Assembly (NCBI GenBank): GCA_018223085.1
Contig: JAAEZB010000007.1
Span: forward strand, 32,831 to 65,973
Source of the DNA: Paracoccaceae bacterium
Lineage (GTDB): Bacteria > Pseudomonadota > Alphaproteobacteria > Rhodobacterales > Rhodobacteraceae
Direction: 5' to 3'
Length of the DNA stretch: 33,143 nucleotides
Each line of letters starts with the position of its first letter. The stretch's first letter is position 1. The notes below the pieces were generated by a model. The model had not been told where the DNA came from. It did not search any database and saw only the letters and a list, made by a program, of their open reading frames with translations. Positions 13,068-24,429 of this stretch are shown here, one piece after another. The position numbers and the translations under genes were made by a program.

Positions 13068-13823
13068 TCAGATGGCCAGATACTCGGAGCGAAGCTCCTC
13101 GTTGGCGAGGACTTCATCGGCACCGCCATCAAAGACGATACCACCGGTATCCAGAATGACCGCGCGGTCCGCGAGTTCGAGCGCCCGCACGGCGTTCTGT
13201 TCGACGATCACGGTGGTGATGCCTTGTTCCTTGATGATGCGCAGGGTCTTTTCGATCTCATCGACGATCACCGGCGCGAGGCCTTCATAGGGTTCATCCA
13301 GAAGCAGCACCTTGATGTCACGGGCCAAGGCGCGGGCGATGGCGAGCATCTGCTGTTCGCCGCCCGACAGCGTCACACCTTCCTGCTTGCGGCGTTCGCC
13401 GAGGCGCGGGAAGAGTTCGTAAAGGCGTTCGAGTGACCAGCCGATGGGCGGGGCGATTTGGGCCAGTTCGAGGTTCTCCTCGACCGTGAGGCCGGGGATG
13501 ATGCAACGATCCTCGGGGACCAGCCCGATCCCAACCGCAGCGGCCTCATAGCTTTTCATGAGGTGCAGCGGTTTGTGATCGAGCCAGATCTCGCCGTGAG
13601 TGACCTGAGGGCTATCCATGCGGGCGATGGAGCGCAGGGTCGATGTCTTGCCTGCGCCGTTACGGCCGAGAAGGGCGAGGATTTCGCCTTCGTGCACGTT
13701 GAACGAGATGTTCTGCACGATGTAGCTCTCGCCATAATAGCTCTCCATGTTCCAGACGGAGAGATAGGCGGGGGCAGTTTCGGCCAGATTGTGGCCCTTG
13801 GAGAAGTCGGGTTTGACGTTCAT
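13068..13823 (-). CDS. livF: LIV-type ABC transporter ATP-binding protein (LivF-like)
   Basis: One of two ATPases of a branched-chain-amino-acid-type (HAAT) importer, 251 residues. Walker A G-R-N-G-A-G-K-T is at 53-60, signature L-S-G-G-E-Q-Q at 152-158, and Walker B L-L-L-D-E-P with the LivF-typical Y-E-G-L-A-P at 173-183. The N-terminal 20 residues are longer than in LivF and carry no known motif. SD AAGGAGA precedes the ATG. Last gene of the operon; its stop is followed by a large GC hairpin. Substrate of the system is not readable from this subunit. Confidence 0.9.
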   Translation of the reverse strand: MNVKPDFSKGHNLAETAPAYLSVWNMESYYGESYIVQNISFNVHEGEILALLGRNGAGKTSTLRSIARMDSPQVTHGEIWLDHKPLHLMKSYEAAAVGIGLVPEDRCIIPGLTVEENLELAQIAPPIGWSLERLYELFPRLGERRKQEGVTLSGGEQQMLAIARALARDIKVLLLDEPYEGLAPVIVDEIEKTLRIIKEQGITTVIVEQNAVRALELADRAVILDTGGIVFDGGADEVLANEELRSEYLAI

Positions 13824-13835
13824 GGCAGGGTCTCC

Positions 13836-14591
13836 TTATCCCGTCTCGCCGAGATACGCTTCGCGTACCTTCGGGTTGCCGCGGATGTTTTGCGGGTCGT
13901 CTTCGACCAAGGGCGTGCCCTGGGCCAGAACGGTGATCCGGTCGGCGAGTGAGAACACGACGTGCATGTCGTGTTCGATGATGGCGATGGTGATGTCGCG
14001 TTCATCCGCGATCTGCTTGAGAAGGTCGATCGTATTGTTGGTATCGGCGCGGGCCATACCGGCGGTCGGTTCATCAAGTAGGAGAAGGCGCGGTTCCTGT
14101 GCCAAGCACATGCCGATCTCAAGGCGACGTTTGTCCCCACGCGACATTGAGGCCGCGTGCATGTCCTTTTTATCGGCCATGTTCATGTCTTCAAGCATGG
14201 CCTCTGCTTTTTCGACGATGTCTTTTTCGTTGTGCATGTTTTCGATGGCATGCATGCGGAAGGCACCGTCGCGTTTGGCGAAGCAGGGGATCATCATGTT
14301 TTCCATGACGCTGAGATCCGCGAAGATCTCGGGGGTCTGGAACACGCGGGAAATGCCCATCTGGTTGATCTCGTAGGGTTTGCGCCCCAGAACCGACTGG
14401 CCGTCGAACATGACAGAGCCGGTATCGGGGATGAGCTTGCCCACGAGGCAGTTCAGAAGGGTGGATTTGCCGGCCCCATTGGGGCCGATGATGGCGTGAA
14501 CGGTGTTTTCCTTCACGCTCAGGTTGACATCGGAGAGCGCCTGCAGGCCGCCGAACCGTTTGCCAACGTCTTTGACTTCAAGAATACCCAT
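13836..14591 (-). CDS. livG: LIV-type ABC transporter ATP-binding protein (LivG-like)
   Basis: Second ATPase of the HAAT importer, 251 residues. Walker A G-P-N-G-A-G-K-S-T is at 36-44 and Walker B L-L-L-L-D-E-P-T-A-G-M at 169-179, matching LivG. The ABC signature reads M-S-R-G-D at 149-153 followed by K-R-R-L-E-I-G, instead of the usual S-G-G-Q or Y-G-Q-Q-R-R form. Asp replaces the Gln and Arg the first Gly, which may be a subfamily trait. The switch His lies in E-H-D-M-H at about 207. It starts behind AGGAGA, 13 bases after the permease stop. Confidence 0.9.
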   Translation of the reverse strand: MGILEVKDVGKRFGGLQALSDVNLSVKENTVHAIIGPNGAGKSTLLNCLVGKLIPDTGSVMFDGQSVLGRKPYEINQMGISRVFQTPEIFADLSVMENMMIPCFAKRDGAFRMHAIENMHNEKDIVEKAEAMLEDMNMADKKDMHAASMSRGDKRRLEIGMCLAQEPRLLLLDEPTAGMARADTNNTIDLLKQIADERDITIAIIEHDMHVVFSLADRITVLAQGTPLVEDDPQNIRGNPKVREAYLGETG

Positions 14592-14604
14592 CGGTCAATT
14601 CTCC

Positions 14605-15792
14605 TTATTCTGCCGGTTCGGTTTTGGCGGTGTTGTTGCTGTCGTCTTTCTTGCTGGTGACCAGCTTCTTGAGGCGCTGACCGCCCTCAACAAGGCCACC
14701 GGGCAGGAAGATCACGACGAGCATGAACAGGATGCCGAGGGTCAGGTGCCAGCCCTTGCCGATGAAGGGATGGATGATGAAGACGACAAAGTCTTCAAGG
14801 CCATCGGGCAGGAAGCTGAACCAGCCGTGCAGGATGTTGTCGTTGATTTTCGAGAAGATGTTCTCGAAATACTTGATGAAGCCTGCGCCGAGAACCGGAC
14901 CGATCAGGGTCCCGGTGCCGCCGAGGATGGTCATCAGAACGACTTCGCCCGAGGCAGTCCACTGCATCCGCTCGGCCCCGGCCAGCGGGTCCATTGCCGC
15001 CATCAGGCCACCGGCGAGACCGGCATACATGCCCGAGATCACGAAGGCCGCCAGCGCGTAAGGGCGCGGGTTGAGGCCGGTATAGGTCATGCGGGTGTTG
15101 TTGGACTTGATCGCGCGCAGCATCATGCCGAAGGGCGAACGGAAGATGCGGATCGCCAGATAGAACATCACCATCAGGATCACGGCACAGAAGTAGTAGC
15201 CGTTGTTGAAGGTGAATTCCCAGCCGCCCATAGCGATCTTGCTTGAGCTGTTCATCACCAGACCGAAGAAATGCGGCGAGTTGGCTTCGTTGGCGCCAAG
15301 GAGCACTTGCGGATCCTTGGTATAGACCTGAAGGCCGGTTTCACCATTGGTGATCGGGGTCAGAACCGAGTAGGCGAGGTTGAACGACATCTGGGCAAAG
15401 GCCAGCGTCAGGATCGAGAAGTAAATCCCCGAGCGCCGCAAGCTCACATAGCCGATCAGGAGGGCAAAGGCGCCCGCAGTCACGACGGCCAGCGGCAGGC
15501 CCCAGATCACGTTGTAGTCGAGAAGCTTATACATCCAGACCACCGAGTAGGACCCCACTCCGAGGAAGGCCGCGTGACCAAAGGAGAGGTAGCCCGTCAG
15601 GCCGAAGAGGATGTTGAAGCCGATGGCGAAGATGCCGAAGATGGCGAAACGCTGCATCAGGTCCGGGTAGCCCGCGTTGAACTGCGCCATGGCGCTTTCG
15701 GTCGGGAACGGGTTGAGCAGGATCGGCGCGCCAAGAGCGAGGATTGCCACCACGATCATAAGAGCGGTGTCTTTTTTGTTCATTCCGAGCAT
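14605..15792 (-). CDS. livM: LIV-type ABC transporter permease (LivM-like)
   Basis: Inner-membrane permease of the HAAT importer, 395 residues with about ten hydrophobic segments. It has the LivM signature: [20 protein letters not shown] near residue 60, and later L-A-G-G-L-M-A and G-G-T-G-T-L-I-G-P. The ATG at 15792 is preceded by GGAGGAA 7 bases upstream, lying inside the end of the previous permease gene. The C-terminal 25 residues are charged and cytoplasmic. It pairs with the LivH-type permease immediately upstream (3-base gap). Confidence 0.92.
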
Positions 15793-15795
15793 GGT

Positions 15796-16827
15796 TTATT
15801 CCTCCATCACGCCTTTGCGGCCCATGAGACCCCGCGGACGGGTGAGCAGAATGATGATTGCAACCAGGTAGATGATGATCTGGTCGATACCGGGCAGGAG
15901 CGATTTCACCTCGTTCATGGAGGCGAAGCTCTCAAGCACGCCAAGCAGGAAGCCTGCGGCCACGGCGCCCGGAAGCGAGCCCATGCCACCGACAACCACC
16001 ACGACGAAGGACAGCACGAGGAAGTCCATACCCATGTGATAATTCGGCGAGTTGATTGGCGCATACATGACGCCCGCAAGTCCTGCCACGGCGGCGGCGA
16101 TGCCGAACATGATGGTAAAGCGGCGGTCGATGTTGATACCGAGAAGGCCGACGGTTTCACGATCTGCCATACCTGCACGCACCACCATACCGAAGGTGGT
16201 AAATTGCAGGAAGGCAAAGACCCCGCCGATCACGGCTGCGGCAAAGAAGAAGTAAACCAGGCGCCAGTAGGGGTAGATCACGGTGTTGGGATCAAAGCCA
16301 AGCAGGGTGCCAAAGTCGAACGCGCCGGTCAGTGCGTCAGGCGCGCCGGTGGGGATCGGGTTCGCGCCGAAGAAGTATTTGACCACTTCCTGCAGAACGA
16401 TGGCGAGACCGAAGGTCACAAGGATCTGGTCAGCGTGCTCACGTTTGTAGAAGTGTTTGATAAGGCCCCGCTCCATGATGAAGCCGATGCCGATCATGAT
16501 CGGAATCGAAAACAGGATCGATAGAGGTACGGCCCAGTCGATTAGCCCAGCGCCGAATTCGGGGCCAAACCAGGCCTCGACATAGGGTGTCTTCACGACC
16601 AGCGGATTGCCGAGGAAGTCCTTTTGCGTTGGGTCGATGGTCTCGAAGCTGATGGTCAGGATTTTCGAGAGAGTGACGGCACAGAATGCGCCGATCATGA
16701 ACAGCGCGCCATGGGCGAAGTTCACGACGCCGAGCGTGCCGAAGATAAGTGTAAGCCCCAGCGCGATCAGCGCGTAGGCCGAGCCCTTGTCGAGCCCGTT
16801 CAGAATCTGAAGGATGATTGCGTCCAT
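15796..16827 (-). CDS. livH: LIV-type ABC transporter permease (LivH-like)
   Basis: Inner-membrane permease, 343 residues. The N-terminus is typical LivH: a G-L-D-K-G-S-A-Y-A-L-I-A-L-G-L-T-L-I-F-G run followed by V-V-N-F-A-H-G. V-V-G-G-M-G-S-L-P-G-A occurs near the end. It is longer than E. coli LivH (308) because of an insert at about residues 55-80 that contains D-P-T-Q-K-D-F-L-G-N-P-L, probably a periplasmic loop. The start at 16827 follows GGTGGGG; an alternative ATG at 16839 adds four residues, and the longer reading to 16944 would cross the intergenic hairpin. Second gene of the operon. Confidence 0.92.
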   Translation of the reverse strand: MDAIILQILNGLDKGSAYALIALGLTLIFGTLGVVNFAHGALFMIGAFCAVTLSKILTISFETIDPTQKDFLGNPLVVKTPYVEAWFGPEFGAGLIDWAVPLSILFSIPIMIGIGFIMERGLIKHFYKREHADQILVTFGLAIVLQEVVKYFFGANPIPTGAPDALTGAFDFGTLLGFDPNTVIYPYWRLVYFFFAAAVIGGVFAFLQFTTFGMVVRAGMADRETVGLLGINIDRRFTIMFGIAAAVAGLAGVMYAPINSPNYHMGMDFLVLSFVVVVVGGMGSLPGAVAAGFLLGVLESFASMNEVKSLLPGIDQIIIYLVAIIILLTRPRGLMGRKGVMEE

Positions 16828-16909
16828 GGTCCCCACCATTTGACTATTGGGAAAGGCGCCTTTGCGGGAAGTCTCTTGCTGTCCCGTCGCGGCGCTGGCG
16901 CTCGTGAGA

Positions 16910-16940
16910 GATGGCGGGCGGAATAGCTCCGCCCGCCATC
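16910..16940 (-). promoter_or_regulatory. 13-bp perfect hairpin between livK and livH
   Basis: GATGGCGGGCGGA (16910-16922) and TCCGCCCGCCATC (16928-16940) with a 5-base loop, 16 bases past the binding-protein stop. On the minus strand it is followed by TCTCACG, so there is no real U-run. It is more likely a 3' barrier to exonuclease that raises binding-protein mRNA than a terminator. Confidence 0.7.
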
Positions 16941-16956
16941 GCACATTTCGCTAGGA

Positions 16957-18309
16957 TCAGGCGCCCGGGTTGCAGGTGCCGAGCGATGCTTCGGCGCCGC
17001 CGAACATTGCGTGATCCGGTGCGTAGGTGACCTGAGCGACCGGCGTCTTCTCAACCACTTCGAGTGTATCATACTCAGTGGTCGGGTTGTCGCGGCCTTT
17101 CATGACCAGCACGTCTTTGAAGCACTGGTGGTCGTCTGCGCGGTAGAGGGTCGGGCCGTTGCCCAGACCGTCGAATTCGAAGCCTTCGAGGGCTTCTGCA
17201 ACGGCGCAGGGGTTGAACGAACCGGCACGTGCCACGGCGTCTGCATAGAGCAGGGTCTGGGCATAGCAGGTCTGAGCCGAGTTGGACGGCGGACGGCCAT
17301 ACTTCTTACCGAAGGACTGCACGAATGCCTTGGTGCCTTCGTCCTGAAGCTGCCAGTTCCAGTTCATCGAGCCATAGACGCCTTTGATGTTCTCACCGGC
17401 ACCAGCCGCCATCAGTTCCGAGTAGAGCGGAACGACGATTTCGAACTGTTTGCCGTTGACCATCTTGTCACGCAGGCCGAACTGAATCGCGTTGGTGAGC
17501 GAGTTCACCATGTTGCCGCCGTAGTGGTTCAGAACCAGCACGTCTGCGCCCGAGTTCAGAACCGGAGCGATGTAGGACGAGAAGTCAGTCGCCGACAGCG
17601 GGGTCAGCACGTTGTTGACGGTTTCCCAGCCCATGGCTTCGGTGGCAGCCGCGATCGACTCTTGCTGGGTCCAGCCCCAAGTGTAGTCGGCGGTCAGGTG
17701 ATAGGCGCGGCGATCGGTGCCGTATTCTTTCGCCAACACCGGTGCCAGAGCGGCAGCGGACATGTAGGCGTTGAAGAAGTGACGGAAACCGTTGGCCTTG
17801 CGGTCCTTACCGGTGGTGTCGTTGGAGTGGGTCAGACCGGCCATGAAGATGATGCCAGCTTCCTGGCAGAGGCCTTGAACAGCCACGGCCACGCCCGAAG
17901 ACGAACCGCCGTTGATCATCACAACGCCGTCTTTTTCGATCATCGACTTTGCCGAGGCGCGGGCTGCGTCCGACTTGGTCTGCGTGTCGCCGGTTACGAA
18001 CTCGACTTTCTTGCCGAGCACACCGTCGCCGCCGAGGGCTTTGGAGCTGAAGGTGTTCAGCGCACCGCCGTCACCCATGCCGTTGATGTGTTCAATGGCG
18101 AGCTCTTGTGCGCGCAGCTCGTCCATGCCTTCGTCGGCATAGGGGCCGGTCTGGGGCACGTTGAAGCCGAACTTCACGGTCGAGCCGGTGGGCTCGTTCG
18201 TGTAGGCGGCTGCCGAGCTGGCAGTGAAGATGGTCGGCAGCGCAACGCCAGCGCCTGCGACGGCACCGGTCTTGAGCACGCCGCGACGTGTCATAGTGGT
18301 TTTGGACAT
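16957..18309 (-). CDS. livK: LIV-type ABC transporter substrate-binding protein, Tat-exported
   Basis: Periplasmic receptor of the HAAT importer, 450 residues, in the Peripla_BP_6 class. The N-terminus has a twin-arginine signal (T-R-R-G-V-L-K-T-G then a weakly hydrophobic Ala/Gly stretch, cleavage near S-S-A-A-A-Y at about residue 35), implying export in folded form by Tat. The mature part shows K-F-G-F-N-V-P-Q-T-G-P-Y-A-D-E-G, then V-M-I-N-G-G-S-S-S-G-V-A-V-A and Y-H-L-T-A-D-Y-T-W-G-W. Four Cys occur. It is longer than E. coli LivK (369). Ligand unknown: amino acids, amides and organic acids are all possible for this class. First gene of the operon, with SD GGGAGGA and a candidate promoter at 18382-18411. 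Confidence 0.9.
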   Translation of the reverse strand: MSKTTMTRRGVLKTGAVAGAGVALPTIFTASSAAAYTNEPTGSTVKFGFNVPQTGPYADEGMDELRAQELAIEHINGMGDGGALNTFSSKALGGDGVLGKKVEFVTGDTQTKSDAARASAKSMIEKDGVVMINGGSSSGVAVAVQGLCQEAGIIFMAGLTHSNDTTGKDRKANGFRHFFNAYMSAAALAPVLAKEYGTDRRAYHLTADYTWGWTQQESIAAATEAMGWETVNNVLTPLSATDFSSYIAPVLNSGADVLVLNHYGGNMVNSLTNAIQFGLRDKMVNGKQFEIVVPLYSELMAAGAGENIKGVYGSMNWNWQLQDEGTKAFVQSFGKKYGRPPSNSAQTCYAQTLLYADAVARAGSFNPCAVAEALEGFEFDGLGNGPTLYRADDHQCFKDVLVMKGRDNPTTEYDTLEVVEKTPVAQVTYAPDHAMFGGAEASLGTCNPGA

Positions 18310-18519: not shown

Positions 18520-19836
18520 ATGCCCTTGGCACGCGATACCCTGACCGGAAGCCGCATTCGCGAGCGCCGCGCTATGGCGGGAATGCGGCAATCGGAACTG
18601 GCACGGGAGGTCGGGATATCGGCCTCTTACCTTAATCTGATTGAGCATAATCGCCGCAGAATCGGCGGAAAACTCCTTGTCGACATTGCTCAGGTTCTTG
18701 GGGTGGAACCCTCGATTCTCAGCGAAGGGGCCGAGGCGGCGATGATTGCCACACTGCGCGAAGCGGCGGCAGGCGCGGGCAGGGCACAGCCGGAGCTGGA
18801 CCGGATCGACGAATTTGCCGGGCGGTTTCCGGGATGGGCGGAACTCGCGGTGGAGAACCATCGCCGTATTGCCTCGCTTGAGCGGGTGGCGGCGACACTG
18901 ACCGATCGTCTGACCCATGATCCGCATCTGGCGACCTCGATGCATGAGGTGTTGACCATGGTAACGGCGATCCGTTCGACGGCGTCGATCCTGGCAGAGA
19001 CCCAGGAGATTGAGCCAGAATGGGAAAAGCGGTTTCAGCGCAACCTCAACGAAGATAGCCGCCGTCTGGCAGAAAGCACGCAGCAGCTTGTGTCCTATCT
19101 CGACGGGGCCGGGGATGTGGGGGCGAGCCTGACTTCGCCGATGGAGGAGGTCGAGGCGATGCTGGCTACGCATCGTTACCATTTTCCGCAGCTTGAGGAA
19201 GGAGATGCGGCGATTGGCTTTGATTTCGAAGGGTTTGTGGCGGAGCAACCGCAGCTGACATCGCAGGGCGCGCGCGACCTTGCGGTGACGACGCTGCGGC
19301 AGCTTGGGGCCGATGCACGGGCCATGCCGCGTGAGCAGGTTGCAACGGTGCTCAGGGAGTGCGGTATGGAGTTCACCGAGATCATGCGCCGGTTCCGGGT
19401 TCCGATGGCGACCGTATTTCGCCGGCTGGCGATCTTGTCGGATACGCTTTTGCCGCAATCTCTTGGCCTTGTGATGTGTGACGGGTCGGGGATGTTGATG
19501 CTGCGCAAGCCGGTCGAAGGCTTCCCGGTTCCCCGGTTTAGCGCGGCCTGTCCGAAATGGCCGCTATTTCAGGCTCTGAATCGCCCGCTACGCCCCATTC
19601 GCCAGCAGGTCACAGTCACTGGGCGCGATGCGCGGCCTTTCGAATGTTATGCGGTGACCGAGGCGATTGGTGTGGCGGCGTTTAACGAAGACCCGCTCTA
19701 TCATTCCTACATGCTGGTGGTGCCGCTTGAACGCGCGGCGCCGGATGCGCGCGAGGTTGGGTCGAGTTGTCGGGTCTGTCCCAGCATGGATTGCGAGGGG
19801 CGCCGGGAGCCTTCGATCCTCGTGCAGGGACTCTGA
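18520..19836 (+). CDS. ScfR-family (short-chain acyl-CoA-type) XRE transcriptional regulator
   Basis: A 438-residue cytoplasmic regulator. The N-terminal XRE helix-turn-helix spans about residues 8-65 (R-I-R-E-R-R, M-R-Q-S-E-L-A-R-E-V-G-I-S-A-S-Y-L-N-L-I-E, then R-R-I-G-G-K-L-L). The C-terminal half fits the DUF2083/ScfR domain, with the V-P-M-A-T-V-F-R-R-L-A stretch and a terminal Cys motif C-R-V-C-P-S-M-D-C. The HExxH metalloprotease-like core seen in some relatives is not visible. Family members (RamB, PccR) respond to acyl-CoA of acetate or propionate metabolism. The start is ambiguous: ATG at 18520 has GGAG only 2 bases upstream, whereas TTG at 18526 has it at 8. Divergent from the LIV operon, so likely its regulator and self-regulated. 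Confidence 0.85.
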   Translation: MPLARDTLTGSRIRERRAMAGMRQSELAREVGISASYLNLIEHNRRRIGGKLLVDIAQVLGVEPSILSEGAEAAMIATLREAAAGAGRAQPELDRIDEFAGRFPGWAELAVENHRRIASLERVAATLTDRLTHDPHLATSMHEVLTMVTAIRSTASILAETQEIEPEWEKRFQRNLNEDSRRLAESTQQLVSYLDGAGDVGASLTSPMEEVEAMLATHRYHFPQLEEGDAAIGFDFEGFVAEQPQLTSQGARDLAVTTLRQLGADARAMPREQVATVLRECGMEFTEIMRRFRVPMATVFRRLAILSDTLLPQSLGLVMCDGSGMLMLRKPVEGFPVPRFSAACPKWPLFQALNRPLRPIRQQVTVTGRDARPFECYAVTEAIGVAAFNEDPLYHSYMLVVPLERAAPDAREVGSSCRVCPSMDCEGRREPSILVQGL

Positions 19837-19926
19837 GGCTGGATTTGACTTGGTTTTTTCGACAGGGGCACTAAGATCGGCAGACCACTCATGAAGCAGG
19901 GGCGCGTGTCGGGGAGGGCAAGCGGT

Positions 19927-20295
19927 ATGGGCAAACGGGTTCTTCTTATTGAAGACGAGCCGAACATCATTGAGGCTATCAGTTTCATCCTGTCGCGGGA
20001 TGGCTGGGCCGTGGCGACGCATTCCAATGGGCATGACGCGGTGGATGTCGTTGAAGAGGCCAAGCCAGACCTGTTGATCCTTGACGTGATGCTTCCGGGT
20101 AAGAGCGGCTTTGAGATTTTGCGTCATTTGCGTGAGAACTATGGGCCGCAGGACCTGCCGGTGATGATGTTGACGGCACGCGGCCAGCTAAAAGACCGCG
20201 AAATGGCTGAGAAGGCCGGGGTCAACCGTTTCATGACCAAGCCGTTTTCGAATGCCGAGATGCTGGAGGCGGTGCGCGAACTGGTCGCGTCGTGA
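19927..20295 (+). CDS. Receiver-only response regulator
   Basis: A 122-residue protein consisting only of a receiver domain, with no DNA-binding or enzymatic output. Acidic pocket Glu9/Asp10, phospho-acceptor Asp53 in L-I-L-D-V-M-L-P-G, Thr83 and Lys105 in M-T-K-P-F are all present, so it should be phosphorylatable. The start at 19927 is preceded by GGGAGGG; an in-frame start at 19891 would add 12 residues ahead of the fold. A weak TTGACT occurs at 19845-19850 but without a convincing -10. Its TGA overlaps the next gene's GTG (GTGA). It is the likely partner of the kinase two genes downstream, working by protein contact or as a phosphorelay shuttle. Confidence 0.92.
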   Translation: MGKRVLLIEDEPNIIEAISFILSRDGWAVATHSNGHDAVDVVEEAKPDLLILDVMLPGKSGFEILRHLRENYGPQDLPVMMLTARGQLKDREMAEKAGVNRFMTKPFSNAEMLEAVRELVAS

Positions 20296-20558
20296 GCGAG
20301 AGGCGGTCTCCTCTGTTTCTTGAGCGGCAGAGCTATCGCGGTCGTCGTCTTGTTGATTTCCTGCGCATTCTGCCTCTGCTTGGCGGACTTCTGTGGGCTG
20401 TGCCGTTGCTCTGGCCGACCGGGGAGGAAAGCACGGTCACCACTTCCGAGGCGATCATCTATATTTTTGGGGTTTGGCTCTTCATGGTGCTTGCCAGCGC
20501 TGCGGTGTCCTTTTTCCTGCGCCGCTCGGGGTTAAGTGTCGAGCGTAAGGACGGGTAG
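20292..20558 (+). CDS. Small two-TM protein between response regulator and kinase
   Basis: An 88-residue protein with a basic N-terminus (residues 1-20, five Arg) and two membrane segments at about 22-41 and 54-76, joined by a short acidic loop with T-G-E-E-S-T-V-T-T-S-E. The tail is basic. It begins with GTG at 20292 inside the stop of the response regulator (4-base overlap) and ends 5 bases before the kinase gene. The packing makes co-translation very likely. I recognise no family; a role as an assembly or accessory subunit of the SLC5-kinase is an inference from position only. Confidence 0.75.
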   Translation: MSERRSPLFLERQSYRGRRLVDFLRILPLLGGLLWAVPLLWPTGEESTVTTSEAIIYIFGVWLFMVLASAAVSFFLRRSGLSVERKDG

Positions 20559-20563
20559 GCGCT

Positions 20564-23254
20564 ATGGCGACGATGAATATCCTCGTGGCGGTGTGTTTCG
20601 TCTACGTGGCTTTTCTGTTCTTTGTCGCGTTTGCCGCCGAGCGCGCGGCGCGGCAAGGGCGTAGCGGCTGGCTGCGTTCGCCGATGGTTTATACGCTTTC
20701 CCTCTCGATTTATTGCACGGCCTGGACCTTTTATGGCGCTGTGGGCTATGCGGCGCGGTCGGGGATGGAATACCTGACCATCTATATTGGTCCGACGCTG
20801 GTCATGATCGGGTGGTGGTGGGGTTTGCGCAAATTGGTGCGGATCGGGCGCACGCAGCGCGTGACTTCGATCGCCGACCTGATTTCCTCGCGTTATGGCA
20901 AGTCGAACCTTCTGGCGATTGGGGTCACGGTTCTCGCGGTGATTGGCACCACGCCATATATCGCGCTGCAACTTCAGTCTGTCACGCTCAGCTTTTCGGT
21001 TTTCGCGGATGCCGCAGATAAGAGTGGCGGGATGACCGATATGGATTCCACGGCGCTTCTGGTGGCGATGGGATTGGCGCTTTTCACGATCTTGTTCGGG
21101 ACCCGCAACCTTGATGTCAACGAACGCCACCATGGTGTTGTGATCGCTATCGCGGTTGAGGCCATCGTCAAGCTTTTCGCGCTTTTGGCTGTGGGCGCCT
21201 TCGTCGTTTGGGGCGTTGTTGGAGGCGTGGGCGAAATGATGGCGCGGATTGATGCCTCGGATATTGGCCATTGGCAAATGCGTGGGGATCGCTGGGCTTC
21301 GCTTATCTTCCTGTCAGCGGCGGCGTTTCTCTGTCTGCCGCGGATGTTTCAGGTCATGGTGGTTGAGAATGACGATGAGGGGCATTTGCGAACCGCGTCC
21401 TGGGCGTTTCCGGCCTACCTCATGGTGATGAGCCTTTTTGTGGTGCCGATTGCCGTGACGGGCCTCGATCTCTTACCGGAGGGCTCTAACCCGGACTTGT
21501 TCGTTCTGACCTTGCCACTTGCCATGGGCAAGGAAGGGTTGGCGATGTTGTCGTTTATCGGCGGTTTTTCTTCAGCGACGTCGATGGTCATCGTGGCGGC
21601 GCTGGCACTGTCGACGATGGTGTCGAACCATATTGTTATGCCGATATGGCTCTCGGTGACGGGGGGCGGGGCGTCAGTGTCAGGCGATGTGCGCAATGTG
21701 GTCATCACGTCGCGGCGGTTTTCAATCGCGGGCGTGGTGGTGCTTGGCTATCTCTATTTCCGGGTTTCGGGGGGCGGCACTGCGCTGGCCTCAATCGGGC
21801 TTGTGTCCTTTGCCGGGGTGGCGCAGCTGCTGCCGGTACTGCTTGGCGGGGTGTTCTGGCGCGGGGCGACACGGACGGGGGCGTTTGTTGGGCTGAGCGT
21901 CGGGTTTGTTGTCTGGACTTATAGTCTGCTGCTGCCGAGTTTCGGGCCGGATGCGGTTCTGTCGACACAGATTCTCGACCAAGGGCCTTTCGGCTGGTCT
22001 TGGCTCCGACCGCAGGCGTTTTTCGGGATTGAGGGGCTTGATCCGCTGGTCCATGCGATCCTTTGGTCGATTTCACTCAATGGGTTGAGCTTTGTGCTGG
22101 CTTCGATGGTGGGCTTTCCGACACCGCTTGAACGGTTGCAAGGGGCGCAGTTCGTCAATGTCTATGAGCATAGCACCACGCCCCAGAGCTGGAGCGGGAA
22201 CGCGGCGCAGAGCGAAGACCTGATGATTATGTCGCAGCGCATTCTTGGCGCGCGCGAGGCGCAGACCCTGTTTGAGCGCGAGGCCAAGCGGCAGGGGGTG
22301 AGCGGGTATTTGCCTGATACGACGCCAGATTTCCTGCAGGCGCTTGAAAGGGCGCTTTCGGGATCGGTCGGCACGGCGACGGCGCATGCGATGATCGGGC
22401 AGATCGTGGGCGGGGCGTCGGTTTCGGTCGAAGATCTTCTGGCGGTGGCGGACGAGACGGCGCAGATGATGGAATATTCTAGTCGTCTTGAGGCAAAATC
22501 CGACGAACAGGCGCGCACGGCGCGGCAGTTGCGGCAGGCCAATGAGAAATTGCAGCAGATTTCAGTGCAAAAGGATGCTTTCCTTAGTCAGGTCAGCCAT
22601 GAGCTGCGCACGCCGATGACGTCGATCCGGGCATTTTCCGAAATCCTGCGCGATAGTGAGCGGCTGAGCGAGAGCGAGCAGGTCAAATACGCCTCAATCA
22701 TTCATGACGAGGCATTGCGCCTGACGCGCTTGCTGGATGACCTTCTTGATCTCAGCGTGCTGGAAAACGGTCAGGTAAACCTTAATATCCAAAGTGGGCA
22801 GCTTGGGCGGCTTCTGGATCACGCGATTGCCTCGGCCCTTACCGGAAGTGGGGCGGAGGGGTTCGTGATCCACCGGGATTCTGTGCTTGAAGCGGTGCGT
22901 TTGACCACGGACCTTGATCGGTTGAGTCAGGTTTTCATCAACCTGATTTCCAATGCGCAGAAATATTGCGATGCCGATGTGCCGGAGCTCGCCATCCGGG
23001 TCAGCCCCCGTGATGACCGGATTGTCATTGATTTTGTGGATAACGGTTCGGGGATTTCCAAGGAGGATCAGGCGGTGATCTTCGAGAAGTTCGCCCGCGT
23101 TGGGGCGATGCGCGCCGGGGGCGCGGGGCTTGGATTGGCGATTTGTCGTGAGATCATGGCGCGTCTTGGTGGGTCGGTGAGCTATCTGCCGGGACAGGGC
23201 GGGGCGGCGTTCCGTGTGATCTTGCCAACGTCACAAGCGATGGCGGCACAATAA
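20564..23254 (+). CDS. SLC5/SSS transporter-coupled sensor histidine kinase
   Basis: An 896-residue membrane sensor. Residues about 5-530 form a sodium:solute symporter (SSSF) domain of roughly 13 hydrophobic segments, including S-I-Y-C-T-A-W-T-F-Y-G-A-V-G near the start and F-I-G-G-F-S-S-A-T-S-M-V-I-V-A mid-domain. A linker and coiled coil (about 545-665, E-K-L-Q-Q-I-S-V) leads to HisKA with His679 in S-H-E-L-R-T-P. HATPase motifs are Asn797 (N-box), D-N-G-S-G-I at about 826, F-E-K-F and G-A-G-L-G-L-A-I. No C-terminal receiver is present. This is the CbrA/CrbS class, in which the transporter part senses or carries the ligand; CrbS is linked to acetate metabolism. The alternative start at 20573 differs by three residues. 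Confidence 0.92.
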   Translation: MATMNILVAVCFVYVAFLFFVAFAAERAARQGRSGWLRSPMVYTLSLSIYCTAWTFYGAVGYAARSGMEYLTIYIGPTLVMIGWWWGLRKLVRIGRTQRVTSIADLISSRYGKSNLLAIGVTVLAVIGTTPYIALQLQSVTLSFSVFADAADKSGGMTDMDSTALLVAMGLALFTILFGTRNLDVNERHHGVVIAIAVEAIVKLFALLAVGAFVVWGVVGGVGEMMARIDASDIGHWQMRGDRWASLIFLSAAAFLCLPRMFQVMVVENDDEGHLRTASWAFPAYLMVMSLFVVPIAVTGLDLLPEGSNPDLFVLTLPLAMGKEGLAMLSFIGGFSSATSMVIVAALALSTMVSNHIVMPIWLSVTGGGASVSGDVRNVVITSRRFSIAGVVVLGYLYFRVSGGGTALASIGLVSFAGVAQLLPVLLGGVFWRGATRTGAFVGLSVGFVVWTYSLLLPSFGPDAVLSTQILDQGPFGWSWLRPQAFFGIEGLDPLVHAILWSISLNGLSFVLASMVGFPTPLERLQGAQFVNVYEHSTTPQSWSGNAAQSEDLMIMSQRILGAREAQTLFEREAKRQGVSGYLPDTTPDFLQALERALSGSVGTATAHAMIGQIVGGASVSVEDLLAVADETAQMMEYSSRLEAKSDEQARTARQLRQANEKLQQISVQKDAFLSQVSHELRTPMTSIRAFSEILRDSERLSESEQVKYASIIHDEALRLTRLLDDLLDLSVLENGQVNLNIQSGQLGRLLDHAIASALTGSGAEGFVIHRDSVLEAVRLTTDLDRLSQVFINLISNAQKYCDADVPELAIRVSPRDDRIVIDFVDNGSGISKEDQAVIFEKFARVGAMRAGGAGLGLAICREIMARLGGSVSYLPGQGGAAFRVILPTSQAMAAQ

Positions 23255-23310: not shown

Positions 23311-24429
23311 ATGCCCCGAGCCATGCCTGAGACACCGACAAAATCCATTCTGCACAAGATGTCCGCACCAAAATCCGGGGCGAGTCTTCCGGTTGCGCGC
23401 CAGTTGCGGCGGGCCATTGAAACCGCGGCAGAAGCGCGGATGGGGCTTTCGGTTGAGGTTCGGGCGGTTCATCAATCCTTGCGGCCGCTTGAAGAGGTGC
23501 GCGGGCTGCTTGACGGGAGCGGGTTTCTGGCACTTCTGGAGGGGCGGCCGGGGGGCGGCATCGGCCTTGATATGGCGGTGCTGAGCGGGATCGTCGAACA
23601 TCAGACGATTGGTAGTATCCTGTCACGGAGTGAAGTCCCACGCAGGCCAACGCGGGTCGATGCGGCGTTGCTTGCGCCGCTGCTTGATGATTGCCTGACC
23701 CGGTTCAGTGGCGCGCTTGAGGCGGATGGGGGCGGACCCTGGGGGCGGGGCTATGCCTTTGGGGCCATGGTTGGCACGGCGCGGGGGCTGGTTCTGACGC
23801 TAAGCGAAGGTCTCTATCACGTGTTCGAGATGGAGCTTGCCCTGATGGGCGGCGCGCGTGAGGGGCGGATGGTTGTTGCATTCCCAGACAAGGTCGAGGC
23901 GGCCTTGCCGGACACTTCCGCGGATGCCGATCCCTTACCTCCGGGGGAGAGCCTGCGTGCCGGGGTAATGACGGCGCAGGCGACACTGGATGCGGTTTTG
24001 GCACGAGTCTCGATGCCGCTGGCGCAGTTTCAGGCTCTTGCCGTGGGTGAGGTGGTTGTTCTGCCGCCGGGGGCGCTACAGGATGCGCAGCTTGAGATCA
24101 ATGCAGAGGCGGGCGGGTTGCCAGTCAGTCTTGGTCAGTTGAACGGGTTTCGCGCCGTGCGTCTCAAGGTCGGACAGGAGAGACGGCGGGAGGCGGATAA
24201 GGCCGGGGCGCCATCGCTGCGCGAGGCTTTGGCCGAGGAGCCGGACATAAGCGAGGCAGATCAAGCCTCTATGCCGCTCAATACCGTGGAGGTGCTTGAG
24301 GAGCTGCCAGAGATGGAGGTCGCCGAGAGTGCGGAGATGCCAGTTCTCGAAGAGGGGCTGGACGACCTTGATGATCTGCTCGGCGGTCTGGATGAGGACG
24401 TTGGAGGGGCGGTGGCACTACCCGCGTGA
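23311..24429 (+). CDS. FliM/FliN C-terminal-domain (SpoA) protein
   Basis: A 372-residue protein. Residues about 20-210 match FliM-like middle sequence only loosely (V-R-A-V-H-Q-S-L-R-P-L-E, L-S-G-I-V-E-H-Q-T-I-G). Residues about 220-290 form a SpoA/FliN-like domain (L-D-A-V-L-A-R-V-S-M-P-L, A-L-A-V-G-E-V-V-V-L-P-P-G, G-F-R-A-V-R-L). A long acidic tail ends in L-D-D-L-D-D-L-L-G-G-L-D-E-D. In the flagellar motor or type III systems this domain builds the C-ring. No flagellar genes are in the window, so it is an orphan. Alternative starts are 23323 and 23359. The last 12 bases overlap the convergent gene. Confidence 0.75.
   Translation: MPRAMPETPTKSILHKMSAPKSGASLPVARQLRRAIETAAEARMGLSVEVRAVHQSLRPLEEVRGLLDGSGFLALLEGRPGGGIGLDMAVLSGIVEHQTIGSILSRSEVPRRPTRVDAALLAPLLDDCLTRFSGALEADGGGPWGRGYAFGAMVGTARGLVLTLSEGLYHVFEMELALMGGAREGRMVVAFPDKVEAALPDTSADADPLPPGESLRAGVMTAQATLDAVLARVSMPLAQFQALAVGEVVVLPPGALQDAQLEINAEAGGLPVSLGQLNGFRAVRLKVGQERRREADKAGAPSLREALAEEPDISEADQASMPLNTVEVLEELPEMEVAESAEMPVLEEGLDDLDDLLGGLDEDVGGAVALPA

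Follow-up and report, generated by a model that had tools for sequence, protein, structure and literature searches.

A conserved unit of a stand-alone receiver, a CbrX-like small protein and an SLC5-STAC sensor kinase in Rhodobacteraceae

We analysed a stretch of 33,143 nucleotides from a Paracoccaceae bacterium (contig JAAEZB010000007.1, positions 32,831 to 65,973; hereafter the window), in which a stand-alone receiver, a small two-helix protein and an SLC5-STAC sensor kinase are encoded one after the other. This module is not a local oddity. We consider it reasonably probable that it works as a small-carboxylate transceptor, in which the kinase carries a CbrX-type subunit and has the stand-alone receiver as its partner. 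An earlier note on this DNA had described the three genes as one overlapping or abutting unit, and the start and stop codons confirm this. The 4-base overlap between receiver and small protein (GTGA) and the 5-base gap between small protein and kinase were both reproduced from the sequence. Asp53 of the receiver and His679 of the kinase were also found where the note had placed them (codons GAC at 20083-20085 and CAT at 22598-22600). The receiver frame has a further opening at 19891. The source genome assembly is 89% complete, and the closest kinase match among relatives was that of Shimia aestuarii AMM-P-2 (92% in the kinase).

19927..20295, + strand: stand-alone receiver, 122 amino acids (Response_reg, E-value 1.6e-28); ATG at 19927, stop TGA ends at 20295
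20292..20558, + strand: CbrX-like small protein with two transmembrane (TM) stretches, 88 amino acids; GTG start at 20292, stop TAG ends at 20558
20564..23254, + strand: SLC5-STAC-HisKA-HATPase sensor kinase, 896 amino acids; ATG at 20564, no PAS domain found, without C-terminal receiver
20579..22123, + strand: SLC5 (LeuT-type) transporter domain, kinase residues ~6-520, from the match to 10ed_A; Lys203 corresponds to K196 of CbrA
22196..22468, + strand: STAC region, residues ~545-635 with approximate borders, from the profile match to 10ed_A and the kinase alignment
22571..22771, + strand: HisKA/DHp, residues 670-736 (Pfam HisKA, 3.3e-18), with phospho-acceptor His679
22910..23233, + strand: HATPase_c, residues 783-890 (Pfam, 4.6e-22)

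Conservation of the gene order and of the bare receiver

The three-gene order proved to be conserved across the Rhodobacteraceae. Among 198 genomes, one per genus, the kinase was found in 174 and the small protein (threshold E <= 0.001) in 163, all within those 174. Ten of the 11 genomes with a kinase and no detected small protein have a diverged hydrophobic open reading frame (ORF) at the same position, which ends -18 to +4 bases from the kinase start; in the eleventh, the contig end falls inside the kinase. Among the ten, L123 meets the hydropathy threshold with one stretch only and the frame of L124 opens far upstream.

Neighbouring genes were counted in the loci of the 80 closest relatives, with the loci that had room on the contig as denominators. 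Every locus has both partners upstream of the kinase and on its strand: the receiver was found in 78 of 78 and the small protein in 80 of 80, of which tblastn detected 78 and inspection by eye the remaining two (L093 and L099). Of 108 rows, 91 have a 4-base overlap between receiver stop and small-protein start, a value favoured by the way the start codon was picked (nearest to a 4-base overlap). The small-protein stop falls between -13 and +9 of the kinase start in 106 of these rows, a few of which are duplicate genomes; most relatives have an overlap at the joint where the window has a 5-base gap.

The earlier note had pointed out that a bare receiver is the only adjacent partner of the kinase, and this holds well beyond the window. 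We surveyed 115 loci (L033-L112 and L115-L149), of which 111 were usable; L125 and L144 lie at contig ends, the receiver of L071 is cut by a contig end and none was found in L147. With the window this gave 112 receivers. All are receiver-only, 117-136 amino acids long and without an output domain (by Pfam in the window). Asp10, Asp53 and Lys105 are invariant in all 112 and position 9 is always E or D. Most of them adjoin the small protein or the kinase, the match in L148 being 2.8 kb away. Since the receiver is alone across all 112 sequences, the arrangement that the earlier note found unusual, a bare receiver paired with a transporter-kinase, is the norm in this branch.

No other receiver domain was found on the window's contig in the receiver search of the source genome, and hence no sigma54-type or LuxR-type regulator carrying one next door. 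The source genome has 29 receiver matches, 27 of them above the cut-off, so a DNA-binding partner could be encoded elsewhere. The receiver might then be a shuttle or a sink which passes phosphate to a ChpT-like phosphotransferase or drains the kinase, while the output runs through a DNA-binding regulator of the CrbR-like or CtrA type. CbrA and CrbS are described, in the literature available, as working through DNA-binding regulators. There is also a precedent in the same order: Osp of Rhodobacter sphaeroides is likewise a single receiver domain without an output domain, and it inhibits CckA (PMC9430884). By its description, however, Osp is without the acidic residues and was not seen phosphorylated, whereas the receiver here keeps the full site and lies in a kinase operon. 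With these residues kept throughout and no second receiver on the contig, we regard a shuttle or sink as a possible but rather doubtful role.

The small protein and its relation to CbrX

The earlier note had called the small protein unrecognised. This stands as far as names go, since Pfam and NCBIfam gave nothing above a cut-off. A weak match to DUF6611 (0.0026) stayed under the cut-off of that model; of 22 members, 9 reached E <= 0.01, the best of them 4.5e-5. It does not stand for kinship, because the protein has the place, the build and the probable ancestry of CbrX. In Pseudomonas, CbrX is a two-helix small protein encoded upstream of, and overlapping, CbrA, which is an SLC5-STAC kinase without a C-terminal receiver. 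The genes cbrX and cbrA share a transcript and are coupled in translation, and cbrX is conserved within Pseudomonas and Azotobacter (PMC6591292). In the 2026 cryo-electron microscopy work on CbrA, CbrX remains attached to the SLC5 domain, at TM3 and TM8, throughout purification, and AlphaFold dimers place it between the SLC5 domains of CbrA (PMC13022988, a preprint which describes the role of CbrX as unsettled). In the literature searched for the module, as far as it was available, no description of CbrX-type proteins outside the Pseudomonadaceae was found.

The small protein of the window has two hydrophobic stretches, judged from the alignment and from hydropathy in relatives, and a hairpin is predicted from this build. 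P38, F59 and W62 are invariant in 21 aligned sequences. In 17 loci (L033-L049) the ORF is under purifying selection, with a median ratio of nonsynonymous to synonymous change (dN/dS) of 0.255 and a smaller proportion of nonsynonymous than of synonymous differences (pN < pS) in 136 of 136 pairs; the median pS is 0.66, hence the ratio is rough. For comparison, receiver and kinase had median dN/dS values of 0.087 and 0.085, with pS below 0.7 in 101, 97 and 104 of the 136 pairs for small protein, receiver and kinase.

We then read loci outside the family. Of 397 Pseudomonadota genomes, 204 had a kinase match, and 40 loci were chosen among the matches listed; a further 10 came from five genomes judged Pseudomonas-like. 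A hydrophobic ORF stands ahead of the non-hybrid kinase in 21 of 23 loci outside the family (L126-L148) and ends -29 to +11 bases from its start. The two loci without it are L144, which starts at a contig end, and L148, where the first 94 kinase residues are missing. All five CbrA loci have CbrX. In contrast, no member of the small-protein family precedes the hybrid kinases (~1130-1320 amino acids) in any of 20 loci (L151-L170), which were taken as CrbS/RpuS-like from length and tree position and in which L163 and L166 are the same gene. Four of the hybrid loci have some hydrophobic ORF ending within 260 base pairs (bp); those of L153, L161 and L169 score at most 0.6% against the three family profiles, and the one in L155, 168 amino acids long with a single stretch, was assessed by eye. 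In a tree of 62 SLC5-STAC regions (L125, L144, L148 and L150 left out), one branch with 100/100 support separates the 42 kinases with the small protein from the 20 without it, the labels being set from the reading of the loci.

Profile comparison with hhalign connected the small proteins step by step. The Rhodobacteraceae group matched the other alphaproteobacterial group at 99.5% (E 4.5e-22), which matched group C at 98.8% (E 1.1e-16); group C draws mostly on genomes from outside the Alphaproteobacteria, with one locus from this class (L140) and one from the family (L124). Rhodobacteraceae against group C gave 95% (E 4e-8) and group C against CbrX 83.5% (E 8.3e-6). None of 60 block-shuffled versions reached any of the six hhalign scores, and 47 SLC5-hairpin controls reached at most 16.2 against CbrX, where the real group C score was 29.3. 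Plasmid-borne small proteins score against these profiles too. An 82-amino-acid ORF ending 1 base ahead of the kinase on plasmid p1 of the betaproteobacterium Cupriavidus necator C39 matched the group C profile at 99.1% and the Rhodobacteraceae group at 69.3%. PDEN_RS25400 from a Paracoccus plasmid gave 91.1, 94.8 and 99.2% against groups A, B and C, and the small-protein gene of pFER4 gave 98.5, 95.8 and 0.7%. A 4e-9 match of the small-protein profile to CbrX among the PDB sequences was rejected as circular, as the alignment contained CbrX.

Several results weigh against the kinship with CbrX and against a role as subunit. The direct hhalign comparison of the Rhodobacteraceae group with CbrX is weak (7.4%, E 0.0047), and its score of 17.8 lies below 19.6, the best SLC5-hairpin control of the Rhodobacteraceae profile. 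HMMER profiles without CbrX miss CbrX in the PDB set at E <= 10. Only one SLC5 column is common to CbrA and the short kinases and rare in hybrids, while 41 columns are common to short kinases and hybrids and absent in CbrA. As no SLC5 signature separates the kinases with a small protein from the hybrids, we make no claim about an interface. Moreover, P. putida grows on histidine without CbrX (PMC13022988), which means that a subunit need not be essential, and a CbrX peptide of the same length and altered sequence still permits CbrA translation (PMC6591292). With a positive stepwise chain, a weak direct comparison and a negative HMMER search, we consider homology to CbrX likely but unproven, and the name CbrX-like refers to the position, the build and the probable descent of the protein.

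The P. putida results also speak for another explanation, in which the small ORF is a translational-coupling leader for the kinase and its peptide is inert, since translation of cbrX matters for CbrA production there (PMC6591292) and CbrX can be spared on histidine. A leader alone does not account for a peptide that is under selection and keeps its proline, phenylalanine and tryptophan, for its absence ahead of the 20 hybrid kinases, or for the binding of CbrX to the SLC5 domain. We therefore hold the leader-only explanation to be unlikely. The suggestion of the earlier note that the small protein may be a subunit of the transporter-kinase gains support from its constant companionship with the kinase and its likeness to CbrX, and by this analogy we regard it as a probable subunit.

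The transporter-kinase and its pocket

The Pfam SSF model found no match at the N-terminus of the kinase and, in the source genome, matched only a different contig. With the single kinase sequence, residues 7-472 aligned to the solved chain 10ed_A (E-value 2.6e-65). A 12-member kinase profile without CbrA matched it at 1.4e-106 over positions 6-617, STAC region included, and its last position corresponds to residue 590 of the 606 in 10ed_A. We identified 10ed in this analysis, by sequence, as the CbrA structure, because its chain X (58 residues) is matched over the whole length by the CbrX ORF at 1.6e-32. A kinase match at 2.1e-203 was set aside, as that profile contained CbrA. His679 is invariant across 13 aligned kinases. 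No PAS domain was found in the kinase at E <= 1 with Pfam, and the protein ends after HATPase_c without the C-terminal receiver of the hybrid kinases.

To compare the pockets, we mapped the pocket residues of CbrA (Y51, S53, W55, A56, F71, Y75, F248 and F406; PMC13022988) onto the 62 kinases. The aromatic frame is largely common to these kinases and CbrA. However, the window kinase has T52, T55 and S251 where CbrA has S53, A56 and F248, and so it departs from the histidine pocket of CbrA at these three positions. Of the 20 hybrid kinases, 18 have T at the first of them, all have T at the second and 19 have S or A at the third. The window kinase thus shares with CrbS/CrbR (MxtR/ErdR) and RpuS/RpuR the SLC5-STAC kinase and the residues at which CbrA differs, and in the tree of 62 its SLC5-STAC sequence is closer to the hybrid CrbS/RpuS-like kinases than to CbrA. 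The Na2-site lysine of CbrA (Lys203 here) is kept in 62 of 62.

By its residues, the pocket therefore resembles that of the CrbS-type (acetate/pyruvate) kinases rather than that of the histidine-binding CbrA; CrbS and RpuS have roles in acetate and pyruvate use (PMC9100948). The pocket residues, the Na2-site lysine and the ScfR neighbour together favour a small-carboxylate ligand and proton coupling, and we infer that the SLC5 domain senses a small carboxylate in a proton-coupled manner.

The unit differs from both known systems in other ways. CbrA is paired with CbrB, a sigma54 activator, where this kinase has a receiver-only neighbour and no PAS domain that we could find; the small protein has 88 amino acids, CbrX 58. 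CrbS-type kinases are hybrids with PAS, a C-terminal receiver and a LuxR-type partner, according to the literature available, and the small protein is missing ahead of them.

In the transceptor that we favour, the small protein would pack against the SLC5 domain as CbrX does against CbrA. The SLC5 domain would bind or move a carboxylate of the acetate/pyruvate class together with protons, as suggested by the pocket residues and Lys203. The STAC region and the coiled stretch behind it would pass the state on to a kinase core without PAS, and His679 would phosphorylate Asp53 of the receiver, both residues being present. Since the receiver has no output domain, it would act by protein contact. 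One result tells against a transport-driven signal: overproduced CbrA without its transmembrane part still signals (PMC6591292), which means that transport need not be the signal.

Neighbouring genes and the possible output of the unit

Two further genes flank the unit in the window.

18520..19836, + strand: ScfR-type XRE regulator of the kinase-linked group, 438 amino acids (HTH_3 2.3e-12; ScfRs PF09856 5.2e-10)
23311..24429, + strand: FliM/FliN-like protein, 372 amino acids (FliMN_C 1.1e-5), 56 bp 3' of the kinase

The ScfR has the build of its family (RamB, PccR, MccR), an XRE helix-turn-helix with PF09856, and scores 39.8 bits at a cut-off of 24. All 77 family loci with room have it upstream of the kinase in the same orientation. 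In a tree of ScfRs, one branch with 100/100 support separates 12 kinase-linked from 6 unlinked members; the unlinked ones were taken from the same or related genomes, and L115, L116, L118 and L122, which start inside the ScfR, were left out. The earlier note had taken the neighbouring ScfR-type regulator as a hint at a carboxylate signal; its constant presence and its own side of the tree support that the ScfR belongs to the unit. The ScfR of the window scored 37 bits against the ScfR profile and the other ScfR of the source genome 236 bits. Its C-terminal Cys pattern looks preserved by eye, and a changed ligand site is possible. On its far side, the ScfR adjoins divergent genes of a branched-chain-amino-acid-type ABC transporter (13068-18309, - strand), and the ABC binding-protein gene beside it is kept in 65 of 76 loci. 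Scans of the window for promoters (2 against 1.6 in shuffles) and terminators (8 against 7.6 in shuffles) gave no excess.

The order ScfR, receiver, small protein and kinase also occurs in other alphaproteobacterial families (L126-L129, L131). A second type combines the receiver with an exonuclease-domain protein (~680-730 amino acids), the small protein and the kinase, and in it some receivers lie ~2.3-2.8 kb ahead, beyond the exonuclease gene. RNase_T matched the three exonuclease-type proteins tested (1.1e-36, 7.9e-26 and 2.7e-39). L132 adds a CBS-DUF294 nucleotidyltransferase, and in L133 an SSF symporter adjoins. The module is also found on plasmids.

L190:2688-9588 (NC_008688.1) and L200:1850-8612 (NZ_CP109865.1): second arrangement on Paracoccus plasmids, nearly all genes overlapping
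L192:2446-8300 (CP038202.1): five-gene alpha-type cluster on Paracoccus ferrooxidans pFER4 (1.46 Mb), including the FliM/FliN gene
L199:2173-8796 (NZ_CP068436.1): plasmid of Cupriavidus necator C39 with, in succession, a symporter-like ORF, the small protein, the kinase, the receiver and a 720-amino-acid exonuclease-type protein

On plasmid 1 of P. denitrificans PD1222 the cluster reads nucleotidyltransferase, hypothetical protein (81 amino acids), "ATP-binding protein" (the kinase), response regulator and exonuclease-domain protein. Three of its four gene junctions are 4-base overlaps, and the genes on P. aminovorans p_II are ordered likewise. On pFER4 the kinase is annotated as a sodium:solute symporter and the small protein as hypothetical. 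The 720-amino-acid Cupriavidus protein has, by eye, a long sensor-like stretch between its N-terminal hydrophobic part and its exonuclease end.

It could be argued that these neighbours merely reflect old chromosome order without shared function, as other genes also stay near in 38 to 65 of 76 to 79 loci. But ScfR, receiver, small protein and kinase stand together in every family locus with room, and the module recurs in other alphaproteobacterial families, with short overlaps, in two arrangements and on plasmids too. We find synteny alone very improbable.

For the alphaproteobacteria, we tentatively place the co-inherited ScfR first as the output target; it is the likeliest single candidate, at clearly less than even chances. 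A relay or sink comes second and the FliM-like protein a distant third. Two observations count against the ScfR: it is not beside the exonuclease-type modules in the loci read, and on pFER4 the XRE gene is immediately preceded by genes for a second histidine kinase and a DNA-binding response regulator.

The FliM-like gene directly follows the kinase, in the same orientation, at 76 of 79 loci, and its product may belong to the unit as well. The order is broken in few loci, among them L081, where a transposase-like ORF (345 amino acids, by eye) lies between the two genes. The family profile matches the C-terminal domain of FliM (4yxb, 9.9e-11). We counted flagellar genes by hand in 61 genomes, G022 and G023 (three matches) being unsure. 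FliF and FliN without FliM beside them were found in 41 genomes, and 40 of these have one further FliMN_C protein; the exception, G053, is also without the kinase. This protein is encoded behind the kinase in 31 of the 40 and elsewhere in 7, and its location was undeterminable in 2; the candidate in G004 is weak with the family profile (9.7e-9). The FliM-like gene may thus be the missing FliM of the fla1-type flagellum of roseobacters. In its accessible part, a P. inhibens motility screen (PMC12363192) has the term fliM once, in the reference list.

From the position of this gene one could propose that the receiver acts on the FliM-like switch protein, which would give the transceptor direct control over the steering or braking of the flagellar motor. 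However, the gene is retained in 6 of the 9 genomes that have the kinase but no FliF, which counts against a flagellar role, in the 7 genomes mentioned it lies elsewhere, and beyond the family receiver and kinase are paired at loci with no FliM-like match. We consider the motor route improbable.

A broader speculation, which we think is unlikely to hold in full, is that CbrX-type subunit, SLC5-STAC kinase and receiver are an ancestral module that plugs by contact into lineage-specific effectors other than response regulators. These would be the ScfR, a transcription factor of the acyl-CoA family, in alphaproteobacteria, the exonuclease with its membrane segments in the second type and, in Rhodobacterales, perhaps also the flagellar switch protein whose gene follows the kinase. 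If this were true, the state of carboxylate uptake would set transcription and motor jointly.

A CbrX-like small protein accompanies the non-hybrid SLC5-STAC kinases examined, be they from alphaproteobacteria, a betaproteobacterium or other Pseudomonadota, and the hybrids examined lack it. The purpose of CbrX thereby becomes a comparative question, for which harmless marine model strains are easy to use. The unit in the window, a kinase with one receiver without output domain beside a metabolite-type transcription factor, offers a case in which to follow how the state of a transporter may be turned into a signal for gene control.

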